Positions 312 through 6,632 of a stretch of DNA of 11,498 bases are shown here, one piece after another. A program made the position numbers and the translations under genes. Position 1 is the stretch's first letter. The number at the start of each line of letters is the position of its first letter. The notes under the pieces are model-generated. The model saw only the letters and a list, made by a program, of their open reading frames with translations, was not told the origin of the DNA and ran no database searches. The stretch lies in NCBI GenBank assembly GCA_012841845.1, contig DUTZ01000431.1, forward strand, positions 1 to 11,498. The letters run 5' to 3'. The stretch is from Actinomycetales bacterium. Its GTDB lineage: Bacteria; Actinomycetota; Actinomycetes; Mycobacteriales; Mycobacteriaceae.

Positions 312-1979
312 GTGAGTGGTGGTCCGCTGATCGTCCAGTCCGACAAGACCGTGCTGCTGGAGATCGACCACGAGCAGGCCGACGACGCCCGCCAGGCCCT
401 GGCCCCGTTCGCCGAGCTCGAGCGCGCCCCCGAGCACGTGCACACCTACCGGATCACCCCGCTCGCCCTGTGGAACGCCCGCGCCGCCGGGCACGACGCC
501 GAGCAGGTCGTCGACGTGCTCGTCACCTACTCGCGCTTCCCGGTGCCGCAGCCGCTGCTCGTGGACATCGTCGAGACCATGGCCCGCTACGGCCGGCTGC
601 AGCTGGTCAAGAACCCGGCGCACGGGCTCACGCTGGTCTCGCTCGACGCCGCCGTGCTCGCCGAGGTGCGCCGCCACAAGAAGATCGCCCCCATGCTCGG
701 CGCCGAGATCGACGCCGACACGGTGGTGGTCCACCCCTCCGAGCGCGGGCGGCTCAAGCAGGAGCTGCTCAAGGTGGGCTGGCCGGCCGAGGACCTGGCC
801 GGCTACGTCGACGGCGAGGCCCACCCCATCGACCTGTCCACCGAGCACGAGCAGTGGGAGCTGCGCGACTACCAGCAGATGGCCGCCGACTCCTTCTGGG
901 CCGGCGGCTCCGGCGTGGTGGTGCTGCCGTGCGGCGCCGGCAAGACGATGGTCGGCGCGGCCGCGATGGCCAAGGCCAAGGCCACCACCCTGATCCTCGT
1001 GACCAACACCGTGGCCGGGCGGCAGTGGAAGCGCGAGCTGCTCGCCCGCACCTCGCTCACCGAGGACGAGATCGGCGAGTACTCCGGCGAACGCAAGGAG
1101 ATCCGCCCCGTTACCATCGCCACCTACCAGGTGGTCACCCGTAAGACGAAGGGCGTGTACCGGGCGCTCGAGCTGTTCGACTCCCGCGACTGGGGTCTCA
1201 TGATCTACGACGAGGTGCACCTGCTGCCCGCGCCCGTGTTCCGCATGACCGCCGACCTGCAGTCGCGCCGCCGGCTCGGGCTCACCGCGACGCTGGTGCG
1301 CGAGGACGGGCGCGAGGGCGACGTGTTCTCCCTCATCGGCCCCAAGCGCTACGACGCCCCGTGGAAGGACATCGAGGCGCAGGGCTGGATCGCGCCCGCG
1401 GACTGCGTCGAGGTGCGCGTGACCCTGACCGAGAACGAGCGGATGCTGTACGCGACCGCCGAGGCCGAGGACAAGTACAAGCTGTGCTCCACCGCGCGGA
1501 CAAAGATCCCGGTGGTGCGGCGGATCCTGGAGAAGCACGCCGGGGCGCCCACGCTCGTGATCGGCGCCTACCTCGACCAGCTCGAGGAGCTCGGCGGCGA
1601 GCTCGACGCGCCGGTGATCCAGGGCTCGACCCCCACCAGGGAGCGGGAGACGCTGTTCGACCGGTTCCGTTCCGGGGAGATCTCCACGCTGGTCGTGTCC
1701 AAGGTCGCCAACTTCTCGATCGACCTGCCCGAGGCGAGCGTCGCCGTGCAGGTCTCCGGCACCTTCGGCTCCCGGCAGGAGGAGGCCCAGCGCCTCGGCC
1801 GGCTCCTGCGCCCCAAGCACGACGGCGGCCAGGCCCACTTCTACTCCGTGGTCGCCCGGGACACCCTCGACGCCGAGTACGCCGCCCACCGCCAGCGCTT
1901 CCTCGCCGAGCAGGGCTACGCCTACCGGATCGTCGACGCCGACGACCTGCTGGGCCCCGGGATCCCCGAGGTGGGATAG
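312..1979 (+). CDS. ercC3: XPB/ERCC3-type DNA repair helicase
   Basis: A superfamily 2 3'-5' DNA helicase of 555 residues, the bacterial counterpart of eukaryotic XPB. The protein is close throughout to M. tuberculosis Rv0861c as I remember it. The N-terminal third (about residues 1-185) is the XPB damage-recognition-like domain. The helicase core has Walker A (CGAGKT, about 207-212, Lys211), a DEVH box at 300-303 (D-E-V-H rather than DEAD), motif III LTATL, an RED-like element (VREDG) just after it, and motif VI QRLGR at 493-497. Length is normal for the family. I chose GTG 312 because a purine-rich ribosome-binding site (GAGGGAGGGG, about 294-303) lies 8 bases upstream; an in-frame GTG at 288 lies before that site and is less likely. 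It follows a helicase-associated gene on the same strand and probably acts with it in nucleotide excision or related DNA repair in the cytoplasm. No damage to the reading frame is seen. Confidence 0.95.
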   Translation: MSGGPLIVQSDKTVLLEIDHEQADDARQALAPFAELERAPEHVHTYRITPLALWNARAAGHDAEQVVDVLVTYSRFPVPQPLLVDIVETMARYGRLQLVKNPAHGLTLVSLDAAVLAEVRRHKKIAPMLGAEIDADTVVVHPSERGRLKQELLKVGWPAEDLAGYVDGEAHPIDLSTEHEQWELRDYQQMAADSFWAGGSGVVVLPCGAGKTMVGAAAMAKAKATTLILVTNTVAGRQWKRELLARTSLTEDEIGEYSGERKEIRPVTIATYQVVTRKTKGVYRALELFDSRDWGLMIYDEVHLLPAPVFRMTADLQSRRRLGLTATLVREDGREGDVFSLIGPKRYDAPWKDIEAQGWIAPADCVEVRVTLTENERMLYATAEAEDKYKLCSTARTKIPVVRRILEKHAGAPTLVIGAYLDQLEELGGELDAPVIQGSTPTRERETLFDRFRSGEISTLVVSKVANFSIDLPEASVAVQVSGTFGSRQEEAQRLGRLLRPKHDGGQAHFYSVVARDTLDAEYAAHRQRFLAEQGYAYRIVDADDLLGPGIPEVG

Positions 1980-1988
1980 GGCCTGGCC

Positions 1989-2009
1989 GGGCCGTTTGCC
2001 GAGCGGCCC
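1989..2009 (+). terminator. Hairpin terminator after the XPB helicase gene
   Basis: Ten bases after the helicase stop, GGGCCG (1989-1994) pairs with CGGCCC (2004-2009). The stem can extend inward by a U-G and a U-A pair to about 8 bp around a 5-base loop. It has no long U tract, which is usual in high-GC actinobacteria. It separates the helicase from the promoter of the next two genes. Confidence 0.45.
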
Positions 2010-2038
2010 TTCACACTCGATGTGCCATGCACTAACGT
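2010..2038 (+). promoter_or_regulatory. Sigma-A-type promoter for the tiny gene pair
   Basis: TTCACA (2010-2015) differs from the TTGACA -35 consensus at one base. It is followed after exactly 17 bases by TAACGT (2033-2038), a TANNNT -10. Transcription would start near 2045, about 29 bases before the first ATG, leaving room for the AGGAAG ribosome-binding site at 2066-2071. It is the best-formed promoter I see in the window, which suggests high expression of the two small genes. Confidence 0.6.
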
Positions 2039-2052
2039 GCCTGCCGCACGTT
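2034..2052. promoter_or_regulatory. Perfect inverted repeat overlapping the -10 and start site (candidate operator)
   Basis: AACGTGC (2034-2040) and GCACGTT (2046-2052) are exact reverse complements separated by CTGCC. The 19-base element begins inside the -10 hexamer and spans the predicted start site, where a dimeric repressor would block RNA polymerase. I cannot assign it to a regulator family. Confidence 0.45.
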
Positions 2053-2073
2053 CCGACGGGAAGGCAGGAAGCG

Positions 2074-2196
2074 ATGAACGAGAACCTCGGCAGCCTCGCC
2101 GACATGGGTGTCGGCGGCACCCTCGCGGAAGGCTCGATGGCCGCGTTCGGTCTGCTCTGGCTGGCCTCCAGCGCGCTCACGGGGGACTGGCTCTGA
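2074..2196 (+). CDS. Tiny acidic hydrophobic protein (40 aa), first of a coupled pair; PorA/PorH-like in type
   Basis: A 40-residue product with no recognised family. The start ATG has a good ribosome-binding site (AGGAAG, about 2066-2071) and lies 36 bases behind a near-consensus promoter. Residues 1-20 are polar, Gly-rich and acidic (E3, D10, E19); residues 22-36 form a hydrophobic helix-capable stretch with Trp29 and several Ser; the end is GDWL. There are no Lys or Arg at all, so the net charge is about -4. There is no signal peptide or leader. The stop overlaps the next start as TGATG, so the two products are probably made in equal amounts. Small, acidic, leaderless, Ser-containing peptides made from tandem genes recall the PorA/PorH channel proteins of Corynebacterium, which act together in the mycolate outer membrane and carry mycolic acid on Ser. 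That is an analogy of size, charge and layout, not a sequence match. A two-peptide bacteriocin is less likely because those are usually cationic with a leader. Confidence 0.7.
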   Translation: MNENLGSLADMGVGGTLAEGSMAAFGLLWLASSALTGDWL

Positions 2197-2324
2197 TGAA
2201 CCCCACCGGCAGCACCGGCAGCATCGACCTCTCGGAGATCTCCGGATCGCTCGCGGGGAGCATCGATTTCCCCTGGTCCTCGGTCGTGGTCCTCTGGGAG
2301 TTCCTCAACGGTCGCCTGTTCTGA
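2196..2324 (+). CDS. Tiny Ser/Gly-rich hydrophobic protein (42 aa), second of a coupled pair; PorA/PorH-like in type
   Basis: A 42-residue product whose ATG overlaps the previous stop by one base (TGATG). A GGGGGA stretch about 10 bases upstream serves as the ribosome-binding site inside the first gene. Residues 4-24 are Ser/Gly/Thr-rich with repeated GS units (TGSTGS, SGS, GS) and acidic (D11, E14, D24). Residues 25-37 are hydrophobic and aromatic (F25, W27, W34, F36), and the protein ends RLF. Net charge is about -3. It has no signal peptide and no known domain. Together with the preceding gene it forms a tight two-gene unit under one promoter, arguing that the two proteins act as partners. 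A heteromeric cell-wall or membrane channel is my leading guess, as for PorA/PorH, with Ser residues available for acylation. The amino-acid composition is plainly not random GC-rich noise, because there is only one Arg. Confidence 0.7.
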   Translation: MNPTGSTGSIDLSEISGSLAGSIDFPWSSVVVLWEFLNGRLF

Positions 2325-2389: not shown

Positions 2390-3076
2390 ATGGCCGCCGA
2401 ACGCACCCCCCGCGCCCCGCACGAGCAGTACCGACTCACCACCGTCCCCGTGGACTCCGCGTGGGTCCGCACGCACAACGAGAACCTCTCCGAGGTGCGC
2501 CGACTCCAGTGGTCGGCGGCGATCCTCGGGGCGGTGGTCCTCGCCGCCGGGGTCGCCGCGCTGATCCTCACCGGCTTCGCCTCGTGGGCGTGGATCCTCG
2601 CGGTGATGGCCGGGCTCTTCGCCGTGGGCTGCCTGTCGATGATCGTCTACATCCCCCGCAAGATGGGCTCGATGGAGCGCACCTACGCCACCTCCGAGCT
2701 CGTCCCGGCGATGGTGGCCGAGGTCCGGCCGCGCGGGGTCACCCTCATGGCGCTGGTGGACCGCACCGTCGACCGGTCCGCCGGATCGCTGCCCGCGCTG
2801 GTCACGCGGAGCTGCGAGAAGCTGCCCGGCCACGACATCCGCGTGGGCGAGCGCGTGCCCAGCGTCGCCGTGGTGGGCAACCGCAGCGCCCGCGGCGGCG
2901 ACAACACCTACCAGTTCATCTCCCCCATGCCCATCGCCTGGGCCACCGGCGACGCCGCCGTGCTGCGCCGCTGCGCCAAGGAGATCCCCTCCGGCGAGTG
3001 GGAGCGCCTGCGCCAGAACCTCGACCGTGTCGAGGAGGTCACCGCCCTGCCCGGCCGGCTGCTCCCGCTCGACTGA
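2390..3076 (+). CDS. DUF3239-like two-TM membrane protein
   Basis: A 228-residue protein. Residues 1-41 are a cytoplasmic polar N-terminus. Two hydrophobic helices follow at about 42-61 and 66-88, then IPRK (88-91), a basic flank that places the C-terminal domain (90-228) on the cytoplasmic side by the positive-inside rule. The soluble part is a mixed alpha/beta domain with 'LVPAMVAEVRPRGVTLMALV' near its start and 'NTYQFISPMPIAWATGD' later. I recognise the layout as the DUF3239 family found in Corynebacteriales, whose function is unknown. ATG 2390 is chosen because a -10 hexamer lies 7 bases upstream and the sequence before it has no coding character. It follows the tiny gene pair on the same strand but has its own promoter and a strong terminator after it. 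Confidence 0.75.
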   Translation: MAAERTPRAPHEQYRLTTVPVDSAWVRTHNENLSEVRRLQWSAAILGAVVLAAGVAALILTGFASWAWILAVMAGLFAVGCLSMIVYIPRKMGSMERTYATSELVPAMVAEVRPRGVTLMALVDRTVDRSAGSLPALVTRSCEKLPGHDIRVGERVPSVAVVGNRSARGGDNTYQFISPMPIAWATGDAAVLRRCAKEIPSGEWERLRQNLDRVEEVTALPGRLLPLD

Positions 3077-3381: not shown

Positions 3382-4008
3382 GTGGCGTTGTCGCATGGAC
3401 AGATCCGGGACCGGAGGCGGGAGGACGGCGCCGGCTCCACGATCTCCGGCGTCGCCGACGCCGGACGCCGGGCTGACGGTTCGATGCCCGCCTGCCGCCT
3501 GCGTATGGCCGGCGCCGTCGCCGGCGCGGCACTCGCCCTCACCGGCGCCGCCTGCGGCACCACGCCGCCCCCTGCACCACAGGAGACGACCATGCCGTCC
3601 AGCGAACCGCCCCGGGTCACGCACGCGCAGGCGGAGGCTGCGATGGAGTCCGTGATCGCCGAGATCGGCACCGCGCTGTACACCCATGTGCCCGAGGACC
3701 GATGGCGCACCCTGGAAGAATCACAAACCGTCGGCTGCGGCGGCGGCGTCGCGCGCCGGCTGTGGGGCGAGATGCGCTCCACCTCCGAGGAACTGTCACC
3801 CGAGGCGGTGTCGGAGGTCATCGAGATCGCCGACCGTCACGGATACCGGTCCGACGTGAGCCCGCCCCTCGAGGCGCCCGACCTCATGCTCAAGCTCAAC
3901 AACGAGTGGGGCGACACCGTCGCACTCTCGGTGATCGCCGGCACGGGCAGCACCTTCAGTGGCAAGACGCCGTGTCACCCCGATCCGAAACCCGCGACCG
4001 GCGACTGA
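3382..4008 (+). CDS. Putative LppA-like lipoprotein
   Basis: A 208-residue secreted protein if read from GTG 3382, which has a strong ribosome-binding site (GAGGGGAA, 3371-3378). This start puts 34 polar residues ahead of an otherwise typical signal peptide. From Met35 (ATG 3484) the protein starts with Arg39/Arg41, a hydrophobic run at 42-57 and an imperfect lipobox, LTGAAC, with Cys58 as the likely lipidated residue (Gly at -3 is unusual). ATG 3484 is therefore a serious alternative start, giving 174 aa, although its ribosome-binding site is weak. The mature part begins with a Pro/Thr-rich linker and carries a Cys in 'VGCGGG' and another in 'TPCHP' near the end, probably a disulfide. The pattern GCGG...HGY...GDTVALSV...PCHP resembles the LppA/LppV lipoproteins of mycobacteria as I remember them. 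Those have no known function. It converges on and overlaps the BLUF gene by 34 bases. Confidence 0.65.
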   Translation: MALSHGQIRDRRREDGAGSTISGVADAGRRADGSMPACRLRMAGAVAGAALALTGAACGTTPPPAPQETTMPSSEPPRVTHAQAEAAMESVIAEIGTALYTHVPEDRWRTLEESQTVGCGGGVARRLWGEMRSTSEELSPEAVSEVIEIADRHGYRSDVSPPLEAPDLMLKLNNEWGDTVALSVIAGTGSTFSGKTPCHPDPKPATGD

Positions 4009-4415
4009 CGCCGCTCGTTGACCGTGAACCAGATCGACAGGTCCTCGGCGGCCCGCTTGACGTCCTCGTAGCTCGTCGCGTCCGTGAGATCGGCGAAGCG
4101 CGACTTCTCGGGGATGCCGAACCCCATCCGCCAGTCGCCGAAGCTGCGCTCGGTGATGCGCTCCACGAGCACGACCCGGACGTGGCTGTGGCGATCGTCG
4201 GCGGCGATGCTGTCCATCAACGAGTCGATCTCGGCGGGCGGCCCCTCGAGGAACTGGATAAAGCTGTCGTCCCGGTAGAGCAGGGCACCGGTGATCCCCG
4301 CCCGCTCGTTGTGCGTCCTCGCGGTGTGCAGGATGGACTCGAGGTCGCTCGGCGACATCTCCCGCGTCGCGACACTCGTGTACACGAGGTACTTCAACTC
4401 GCCGTCCGTCGACAT
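3975..4415 (-). CDS. BLUF-domain blue-light sensor
   Basis: A 146-residue protein consisting essentially of one BLUF domain, which binds FAD and changes its hydrogen-bond network on absorbing blue light. The key residues are all present: Tyr12 (LVYTS), Asn36 (HNERAGITG), Gln54 in FIQFLEG, and Trp95/Met97 in DWRMGF. They correspond to Tyr21, Asn44, Gln63, Trp104 and Met106 of AppA. The C-terminal 45 or so residues are short helices. No EAL, GGDEF or cyclase domain is attached, so any output must go through a partner protein, as in PixD/Slr1694-type short BLUF proteins. The chosen ATG 4415 is preceded by GGAG at a spacing of 5; GTG 4421 is an alternative start two codons upstream. The gene lies 104 bases behind the truncated narK on the same strand, and its 3' end overlaps the convergent lipoprotein gene (3975-4008). 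No partner gene is recognisable in the window. Confidence 0.9.
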   Translation of the reverse strand: MSTDGELKYLVYTSVATREMSPSDLESILHTARTHNERAGITGALLYRDDSFIQFLEGPPAEIDSLMDSIAADDRHSHVRVVLVERITERSFGDWRMGFGIPEKSRFADLTDATSYEDVKRAAEDLSIWFTVNERRQSPVAGFGSG

Positions 4416-4519: not shown

Positions 4520-5215
4520 CTACACCGCCAGCCGGTACCCCGCTTGACGACGGTCGCCACCAGGCCCGGCACACCCGGCGCCCACACCGGCCACCACCAG
4601 CAAGACCAGGTACACCCCGATCACCCAGTGCGGCGACCGGTTGCCCGCCGCCGCGATCACCAGCAGCCCCACCACCTGGATGGTGGCCACGCCCAGGTTG
4701 CCGCCGCCGGCGTTGAGCCCCAACGCCCAGCCCTTCTGCCGCTGCGGGAAGAAGGCGTTGATGTTGGTCATGGACGAGGCGAAGTTGGCCCCGCCCAGGC
4801 CGGCGAGGGCGCCCGTGACGAGGTACGCCCACAGCGGCTGACCCGGGTTGGCCATGATCCACAGCATCCCCAGGGCAGGGACGAGCAGGACGAACGCGGA
4901 GAACATGGTCCAGTTCCGACCGCCGAACGTGGCCGTGGCCAGCGTGTACGGGATCCGCAGGAACGCGCCCGTCAGCGTGACCACCGCGGACACGAGGAAC
5001 TTGTCCGGCGCGTCCAGGCCGTAGACGTCCTGCGGCATGAACAGCACCATGACCGCGAACAGGGTCCACACCGAGAACCCCACGTGCTCGGCGAAGACCG
5101 ACCAGTAGAGGTTGCGCATGGCGGTCCTCCGGCCGCCCGACTCCCACTGCGCCGTGTCCTCCGGATCCCAGTGCTCGATGGTGTGCGAGCGCGACATGAC
5201 ATGTGAGCGCGACAT
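4520..5215 (-). pseudogene. narK: Truncated nitrate/nitrite transporter, N-terminal half only
   Basis: NarK-type major-facilitator proteins move nitrate and nitrite across the cytoplasmic membrane. The 231 residues match the N-terminal half of the family: 'HWDPED...W' and 'RNLYWSVFAEHVGFSVW' at the start, Arg87 in LRIPY on TM2 (the substrate-binding Arg), GGRNW at 98-102, the nitrate-signature region GLGGANFASSM...NINAFFP (139-157), KGWALGLNAGGGNLGVA (161-177), and a sixth TM segment at about 196-213. After about residue 212 the sequence becomes unrelated (GCAGPGGDRRQ...) and stops. Full-length relatives have about twelve TM segments and 400-480 residues, so the second half is missing, and I find no sign of it in any frame before the BLUF gene. 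ATG 5215 is supported by an AGGGGGA ribosome-binding site 8 bases upstream. The first residues are a near repeat, MSRSHV-MSRSHT, with a second ATG at 5197. It is unlikely to transport anything. Confidence 0.8.
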
Positions 5216-5478: not shown

Positions 5479-6632
5479 GTGCCCTTCCCCCTCGACGTGC
5501 CCGAAGCCGTCCTCCGCCGGCGCCGCAGCGAGAAGTGGGTCGCCCATCCCGAGGACGTCCTGCCGCTGTTCGTGGCGGAGACCGACGTGCTGCACGCCCC
5601 CGCGATCCGCGAGCGCCTGGCCGCCGCGGTGGCCGACGGGGACACCGGCTACTCCGCGGACGCAGGGCACCTCGCCGCGGTGTGCGCGACGTACTACTCC
5701 CGGTTCGGCTACGAGGTGCCGGCGGACGCCGTGGTGCCGGTCAACGACGTCGGCGTGGGCGTGCGGGAGACCCTCGCCCGGGTCCTGCCCGCCGCAGCGG
5801 CGTCGTGTACACCCCGCCCGTCTACATGCCGTTCGCCCCGTGGATCAGGCGCGTGGGCCACTCCCCCGTCGCCGTGCCGCTGCTCGACCACAGCGGCGAG
5901 GACCCGCGGCTGGACCTCGAGGGCATCGAGCGGGCGCTCGCCGACGGCGCCCGCGCCGTGGTGCTCTGCCACCCCCACAACCCCACCGGCGTCGTGCACG
6001 GCGACGACGAGCTGCGCGCCCTCGCCGACCTGGCGGCACGACACGACGCCGTGGTGGTCTCCGACGAGATCTGGGCGCCGCTCACCATGCCGGGCGTGGA
6101 GTTCCGGTCGTTCCTCGCCGCCTCCGGGACCGCGCGCGAGGTGGGACTGGCCGTCTCGTCGGCATCCAAGGCGTTCAACCTGGCCGGCCTCAAGTGCGCG
6201 TTCGTCGTGAGCGGCAACCCGGAGCGCTTCACCGGCGTGCGGCGCTCCGCGCTGTCCGGTGCCGTCGGACACCTGGGCGCCCTGGCCTGCGAGGCCGCGT
6301 TCGTCGACTCGCTGGACTGGCTCGACGACATGCGGGCCGCGCTGGCGTCCAACGTGGACCTGCTGGACCGGCTGCTGGCCGAGCACCTGCCCCGGGCCCG
6401 CTGGCGGCGTCCCGACGCGACCTTCGTCGCGTGGCTCGACCTGCGGGGCTACCCCGGGCTCGGTGACGACCCGGCGGCGCTCTTCCTCGAGGAGGGCCGG
6501 GTCGCGCTGAGCCCCGGACCCGCGTTCGGCACCGAGGGCAGGGGCTTCGCCCGGCTCAACCTCGCGTGCTCGGAGGAGCTGCTCACCGAAGCGCTCACGC
6601 GGATGGGGCGCGTCGCCACACGTACTCGATGA
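5479..6632 (+). pseudogene. PatB/MalY-type PLP C-S lyase/aminotransferase, broken by a frameshift
   Basis: A fold-type I pyridoxal-phosphate enzyme of the PatB/MalY group, which cleaves cystathionine and related thioether amino acids (cystathionine beta-lyase) or transaminates. From GTG 5479 (ribosome-binding site GAGAGGA, 5464-5470) the first 107 or so codons are in one frame: 'RRRSEKWVAH', 'LPLFVAETDV', 'GDTGYSADAG'. Near 5797-5802 the frame must move by -1 to continue with 'GVVYTPPVYMPF', 'HPHNPTG', 'SDEIWAPL', the PLP-lysine motif 'SSASKAFNLAGLK' (codon 6168-6170) and 'FARLNLACSEE', ending at TGA 6630-6632. Restoring one base gives 384 residues, normal for the family, with Asn168, Asp196 and Lys231 as PLP ligands. 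The missing base lies in a G/C-rich run (GCAGCGGCGTCG), so a sequencing error is as likely as a true mutation. If real, the enzyme is lost. The gene is divergent from narK and convergent with fadB. Confidence 0.85.

Follow-up and report, generated by a model that had tools for sequence, protein, structure and literature searches.

Between a DNA helicase gene and a gene for a DUF3239 protein, a stretch of actinomycete DNA carries two overlapping open reading frames whose peptide products would be 40 and 42 residues long. The locus raises two questions: do these frames form a genuine gene pair, and do their products do the work of PorA and PorH, as an earlier note on this DNA had proposed? We refer to the whole stretch that was analysed, 11,498 nucleotides, as the window. 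Judged by its sequence, the source organism belongs to the genus Dietzia; the same helicase-DUF3239 junction occurs in three named Dietzia records, with DUF3239 proteins 73-74% identical and helicase-DUF3239 spacers of 57, 57 and 126 nt. The features of the locus are as follows.

312..1979, + strand: XPB-type DNA helicase (ERCC3/RAD25; Pfam PF16203, PF13625), the upstream flank
1989..2009, + strand: GC stem GGGCCG/CGGCCC, 3' of the helicase gene, with no T run
2010..2038, + strand: candidate promoter TTCACA-17-TAACGT, a loose pattern match
2034..2052, no strand assigned: perfect inverted repeat AACGTGC-CTGCC-GCACGTT, spanning the candidate -10 and the expected start
2058..2071, + strand: ribosome-binding-like GGGAAGG (2058-2064) and AGGAAG (2066-2071), just 5' of the ATG at 2074
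2074..2196, + strand: ORF1, encoding P1 (40 aa), acidic, predicted to be a single helix (residues 3-36)
2194..2198, + strand: TGATG, the ORF1 stop and the ORF2 start, which would couple translation
2196..2324, + strand: ORF2, encoding P2 (42 aa), acidic, with four GS dipeptides
2390..3076, + strand: DUF3239 protein (Pfam PF11580), the downstream flank

We take ORF1-ORF2 to be a real two-gene unit. Much of what the earlier note had read in the letters was confirmed: the two tiny genes share TGATG at the coordinates listed, basic residues are almost absent (no Lys, Arg or His in P1, one Arg in P2), and Trp is present in both products, at residues 29 and 39 of P1 and 27 and 34 of P2. The GC content by codon position is 0.65/0.53/0.93 in ORF1 and 0.50/0.50/0.93 in ORF2. 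A codon-bias measure was trained on four genes of the window, and each ORF was recoded synonymously 20,000 times according to base composition: 4 recodings reached the score of P1 and 7 that of P2. In both stretches, all five alternative frames scored below the ORF itself. Per codon, the scores were 0.12 for P1 and 0.08 for P2, the four training genes scoring higher (0.33-0.41). A comparable tandem pair appeared in none of 3000 dinucleotide shuffles of positions 1980-2389.

The good ribosome-binding site that had been claimed is present, since both GGGAAGG and AGGAAG stand shortly before the ATG of ORF1. The claim of a near-consensus promoter was overstated: the -35 element fits at five of six positions and the -10 element fits TANNNT, but the latter agrees with TATAAT at just three of six, and a stricter sigma-70 scan returned no site, missing the candidate. 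The window holds a single copy of the looser pattern TTCACA-N15-19-TANNNT, and 3 of 200 shuffles held at least one. ORF1-ORF2 probably has its own promoter. The inverted repeat is the sole exact match to AACGTGC-N5-GCACGTT among 23 genomes of the genus, with one-mismatch matches in two others, and is a possible operator. The GC stem, unreported by a terminator scan, may mark the end of the helicase transcript. A terminator-like site was found on the minus strand within ORF1 (2087-2102; one site, 0.1 expected), and an Rfam search over 1900-2500 gave two matches (E 0.11 and 0.95), both below the family cut-offs. Ahead of the downstream flank, TGGGATACT at 2375-2392, 6 nt before the DUF3239 start, is exact in 18 of 19 congener junctions and resembles the -10 element of a leaderless transcript.

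We then compared the junction across the genus. In 19 of the 22 other genomes (loci L002-L018, L020 and L025) the helicase and DUF3239 genes lie at a computed distance of 18-205 nt, without the pair; G012 had no DUF3239 match after the helicase within the locus obtained, and G006 and G019 gave no such locus. Further along the window we observed a gene for a protein with a BLUF blue-light sensor domain (3975-4415; PF04940), an MFS gene of 231 aa (4520-5215) that we take to be nitrate-transporter-like and that looks truncated, covering profile positions 9-167 of 347, and an aminotransferase-type gene in two frames (5479-6632), split near 5803 by a frame break or an assembly error. The second piece of the latter matches PF00155 and the first piece matches no family.

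The earlier note had raised conservation of the pair in related genomes. Neither frame was found in the 22 other Dietzia genomes (no match below E 0.05), which counts against an orthologous pair, not against a lineage-specific one. In 38 genomes outside the genus, the best match had an E value of 0.00985 (P1, in one genome of 61); it is part of a 104-aa ORF from another family of the order and was rejected as chance. Searches with both peptides gave no family match in Pfam and NCBIfam and no relative by tblastn against plasmids (one chance match, E 7, Rhizobium), and a 26-base exact pattern across the ORF1/ORF2 overlap was absent from the viral contigs searched. Among 5.8 billion predicted proteins, P1 and P2 met nothing besides their own clusters; each cluster has two member sequences, which lie on 36 contigs for P1 and 42 for P2. 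Both peptides are predicted proteins in that collection, and the statement that annotation misses such genes is not true in every case. As far as searched, ORF1-ORF2 is confined to one Dietzia lineage.

The two peptides have net charges of -4 (P1) and -3 (P2), contain Gly/Ser stretches, and begin without the basic residues that a Sec signal would need. AlphaFold2, run on single sequences, predicted one helix for P1 (residues 3-36, mean pLDDT 87.7) and two helices for P2 (12-22 and 27-38, interrupted at 23-26; mean pLDDT 72.1). The GS dipeptides of P2 number four against 0.98 expected, a count reached by a fraction of 0.00345 of 20,000 shuffles, while the two of P1 against 0.72 expected are not unusual (shuffle fraction 0.14). 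In-frame internal repeats were observed in both genes: GSLAD/GTLAE in P1, 27 nt apart (2088-2129), and GSID/GSID in P2, 39 nt apart (2217-2266). The helical moment of P1 is weak at 0.15, which would make it hardly amphipathic, and that of P2 is 0.24.

The pair was set beside known systems of similar build. Like PorA and PorH of Corynebacterium glutamicum (groEL2-porH-porA-ppk2), it consists of adjacent genes for two leaderless peptides of fewer than 60 aa, predicted here to be helical, and both products are acidic. It differs in lying between the XPB helicase and DUF3239 genes and not at groEL2/ppk2, in being joined by TGATG, and in that channel formation and acylation are here putative. PorACj (40 aa, C. 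jeikeium) and PorACur (37 aa, C. urealyticum), both found by position, are of the same size class but are single-gene channels at groEL2. The PE/PPE and Esx proteins of mycobacteria are larger than P1 and P2 and type VII dependent. They are nonetheless alike in being small helical proteins from paired genes, and a comparison between them and PorA/PorH has been drawn (PMC12632848). PorA and PorH are described as shorter than 60 aa, helical and without presequence (PMC5944148), and in Corynebacterium porH and porA are placed between groEL2 and ppk2 (PMC5944148, PMC3792995). The enzyme reported to O-mycoloylate PorA and PorH is Cmt1/MytC (PMC11066868, PMC9671496); by the account in PMC11066868, the modification prefers Ser among Gly, Ala and Ser and follows no strict motif.

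In the congeners, 30 cpn60 loci were fetched out of 48 cpn60 matches listed. Small acidic ORFs adjoin cpn60 in 18 of these 30 loci, from 18 genomes. Typically they form a pair of 47-aa and 51-aa peptides, 48-66 nt apart, and a second pair is often present; the size classes are about 47 + 51 aa and 45-59 + 53-58 aa. In 15 of 15 loci that were extended, groEL2 is accompanied by one to five small acidic leaderless ORFs, as defined by a filter, and then by a homologue of Cmt1/MytC on the same strand:

L306:7353-9995, L307:3335-5279 and L308-L320: groEL2 loci with small ORFs followed by a mycoloyltransferase homologue

The N-terminus of the Cmt1/MytC homologue is signal-like. PF00756 was matched by two reference copies, and each of the remaining 13 shares 73-99% identity with one or other of them; against the Protein Data Bank the L306 copy found Cmt1 as best match (E 8.6e-52), followed by Protein PS1 (7.3e-28) and Antigen 85-A (1.4e-24). 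We did not see ppk2 at the 15 extended loci. In two of the loci, a small GS-rich ORF was observed directly 5' of a pyridine-nucleotide-disulphide-oxidoreductase gene (L306:3779-3931, L307:8623-8748). Among 27 cpn60 loci of 14 other genera, a set holding no confirmed porA/porH Corynebacterium as positive control, we counted five scattered small ORFs and no pair. The context of groEL2 and a Cmt1 homologue is the best evidence that the small acidic leaderless pairs of Dietzia belong to the mycolate outer membrane. In the genome that carries the window, which is 78% complete, the contig ends 568 nt past groEL2 and no small acidic ORF was detected there; its six PF00756 genes are all at most 31% identical to the groEL2-linked Cmt1 homologues.

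The proposal that the window pair does a PorA/PorH-like job is supported in kind, since congeners have small leaderless acidic tandem pairs at groEL2 followed by a Cmt1/MytC homologue, and is not supported in detail, in locus or in sequence. The groEL2-linked pairs share with the window pair the genus, the general build and the tandem arrangement. They differ in being conserved across many congeners, in adjoining the Cmt1 homologue, and in being amphipathic (helical moments 0.37 and 0.41 in the one pair measured), and they gave no confident alignment to P1 or P2.

A second superfamily of Dietzia was reached through a chance tblastn match, whose flank held two other small acidic ORFs. It comprises GS-rich acidic proteins of 46-66 aa that are clustered and carry no Pfam or NCBIfam name; ten of them, searched against both databases, gave no match near cut-off.

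L124-L178, L143, L299 and L297:1096-1621: loci of the GS-rich superfamily

One protein, of 48-55 aa with a core like GSAAIDG..LP, was matched at E < 1e-10 in 20 of the 23 genomes, that of the window included. Its divergent neighbour where seen, a protein of 58-61 aa, occurs in 9 of 23 at E < 1e-18. Families starting MDLTGS and MGSL occur in tandem; at L297, in the genome of the window itself, two genes of the MDLTGS family stand in tandem, adjoining genes that we read, without a family search, as purine-synthesis genes. A GSxxxD core is invariant in the 22 aligned members (22/22), yet it is not absolute: a relative in the own genome reads GSMALN, with N for D, and 53-aa ORFs of L152 and L153, outside the 22-member alignment, have N or E for D. 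At a threshold of E < 1e-6, the 22-member profile matched 21 of the 23 Dietzia genomes, among them the 12 that had supplied its rows; one more matched at E 0.06 and G012 held none. It found three members in the own genome. Searched against the protein collection, the profile returned 79 proteins; among the matches listed, the names were 'hypothetical' or 'uncharacterized' apart from two odd transferred names, and the organisms were Dietzia in all cases but one.

Outside the genus, the same profile gave weak matches alone (E 0.0019-0.073), in 11 of 78 other genomes. Nine of these outside loci were scanned, and in four (L288, L290, L291 and L293) there are small acidic ORFs that share the core. 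At L291:1510-2117, in another genus, we observed two ORFs (40 and 42 aa; motifs TGSSVLD and TGSSGID), flanked on one side by a mycothiol-isomerase-type gene (PF11716) and on the other by a class I tRNA-synthetase gene (PF00749). ORFs of 46-48 aa with TGSAVIDGL were observed in other genera at L288:1483-1629, L290:1465-1605 and L293:1465-1605, one of them adjoining a sortase gene.

The window pair resembles this superfamily in its GS-rich acidic N-terminal part, its hydrophobic C-terminal part and the tandem clustering, but lacks the GSxxxD core, P1 having GSLAD and P2 GSID. To place P1 and P2 among the Dietzia families, we scored each on 13 HMMs (7 + 6) of the GS-rich and groEL2-linked families against 3000 shuffles. 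The best result for P2, against one groEL2-linked family, was equalled by 6 of 3000 shuffles, and by 157 of 3000 with an earlier build that held one sequence fewer; the best for P1, out of 13 models, was equalled by 21-22 of 3000. With the GS-rich models, P2 stood at 27 of 3000 against family A and P1 at 22 of 3000 against family B, the other models of that set being worse. Direct homology of either peptide to these families was not accepted, the scores being marginal over shuffles and dependent on the build. A sequence relation to the groEL2-syntenic members was likewise not established, in a comparison that covered the Dietzia members. BLAST with porA is reported to have given no clear homologue in C. 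jeikeium, where the 40-aa channel was found by position (PMC3792995). As the published PorA-like channels were found by position and porA BLAST was of no help (PMC3792995, PMC5944148), a lack of sequence relation is to be expected in proteins of this type, and its absence here weighs little either way.

The rarity of the build was gauged with two small-ORF filters, which were shaped with the window pair known and so speak for rarity elsewhere, not for the likelihood of the window pair. Across the 30 Dietzia cpn60 loci, the tandem-pair filter, which allowed the second ORF of an overlapping pair to lack a ribosome site, returned 17 distinct pairs, and it also returned the window pair; it returned none in 1.2 Mb of one congener, a sample outside which its groEL2 locus lies, and none in the same DNA reversed. 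The single-ORF filter returned nine ORFs in that 1.2 Mb against one in the reversed DNA, and we count four or five of the nine as members of the new families. P2 fails the strict small-ORF filter.

Taken together, we favour, at a probability of roughly one half, the reading of ORF1-ORF2 as a species-specific pair of mycolate-outer-membrane mini-proteins. One Dietzia lineage would make two leaderless, acidic, helical peptides from ORF1-ORF2. These would leave the cell by the same route as PorA and PorH, and Ser in their Gly/Ser stretches would be O-mycoloylated by an enzyme of the Cmt1/MytC type. P1 and P2 would then come together in the mycolate outer membrane, presumably as a hetero-oligomer, and serve as a surface protein pair or perhaps a small pore. 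The sequence data show the coding signature, the TGATG overlap, the restriction to one lineage and the wider occurrence in Dietzia of similarly built proteins, including a group beside a Cmt1 homologue; the coding signature and these similarly built proteins favour the explanation. The low helical moments, the absence of relatives and of GSxxxD, the marginal HMM scores, and the fact that no groEL2-linked Cmt1 orthologue was found in the 78% of the own genome available count against it.

A narrower proposal, that P1 and P2 are a true PorA/PorH-type pair and assemble, in the mycolate outer membrane of this species, into a mixed ion channel, strikes us as doubtful. Size, acidity, pairing and leaderlessness fit, one-gene PorA variants of 37-40 aa have been published (PMC5944148, PMC3792995), and the break between the two modelled helices of P2 recalls the PorA described in PMC11927696. 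Against this, the pair lies away from the groEL2 locus, where congeners hold pairs of their own, no sequence relation is established, P1 has a low moment, and Dietzia has been credited with an MspA-type channel (PMC9233653, citing a 2014 paper).

It is also unlikely, in our view, that the peptides are small proteins of some other function, such as inner-membrane regulators of the helicase or of the DUF3239 protein. The hydrophobic run of P1 (MAAFGLLWLASSALT) and its confidently predicted single helix would suit such a role. Inner-membrane proteins usually have a basic flank, however, which neither peptide possesses, and in 19 congeners both neighbours are present although the pair is not.

Still less probable is that the pair has no function, being either newly arisen or in decay, or that an insert happens to contain two chance ORFs. 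This would agree with the lack of relatives in 22 congeners and with codon scores under those of the four window genes, but it is opposed by the codon bias itself, GC3, the overlap, the ribosome site and the shuffles of the locus, and by the two member sequences of each peptide on 36 and 42 contigs. Finally, a two-peptide bacteriocin or toxin pair is very improbable: the coupling, the length of about 40 aa and the Gly-rich stretches would fit, but members of that class are typically basic, bear leaders and lie near a transporter or immunity gene, whereas P1 and P2 are acidic and leaderless and have a helicase and DUF3239 for neighbours.

The likeness to PorA/PorH in kind is stronger than the earlier note could know, while membership of that family is not established. 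The wider finding is a repertoire in Dietzia, above all the cluster of groEL2, small pairs and cmt1; we found no print record of it, nor of such mini-proteins in Dietzia and the wider order, in a literature search that left most subscription journals outside. We suggest tentatively, at somewhat less than even odds, that Dietzia has a large, fast-turning repertoire of leaderless mycolate-outer-membrane mini-proteins, made up of groEL2-linked pairs with their own mycoloyltransferase, GS-rich clusters and newcomers like the window pair. If so, surface mini-proteins would be swapped between species, much like the outer-membrane proteins of Gram-negative bacteria. The means by which PorA/PorH-type peptides, lacking a signal, pass through the cell membrane is described as an open question (PMC12632848), and most knowledge of the class comes from Corynebacterium. 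Should Dietzia share this class, with a clustered Cmt1 homologue and many variants, comparison could reveal what export and acylation require, and the window pair would offer a very short, species-specific case for asking whether the class can arise or be gained anew.
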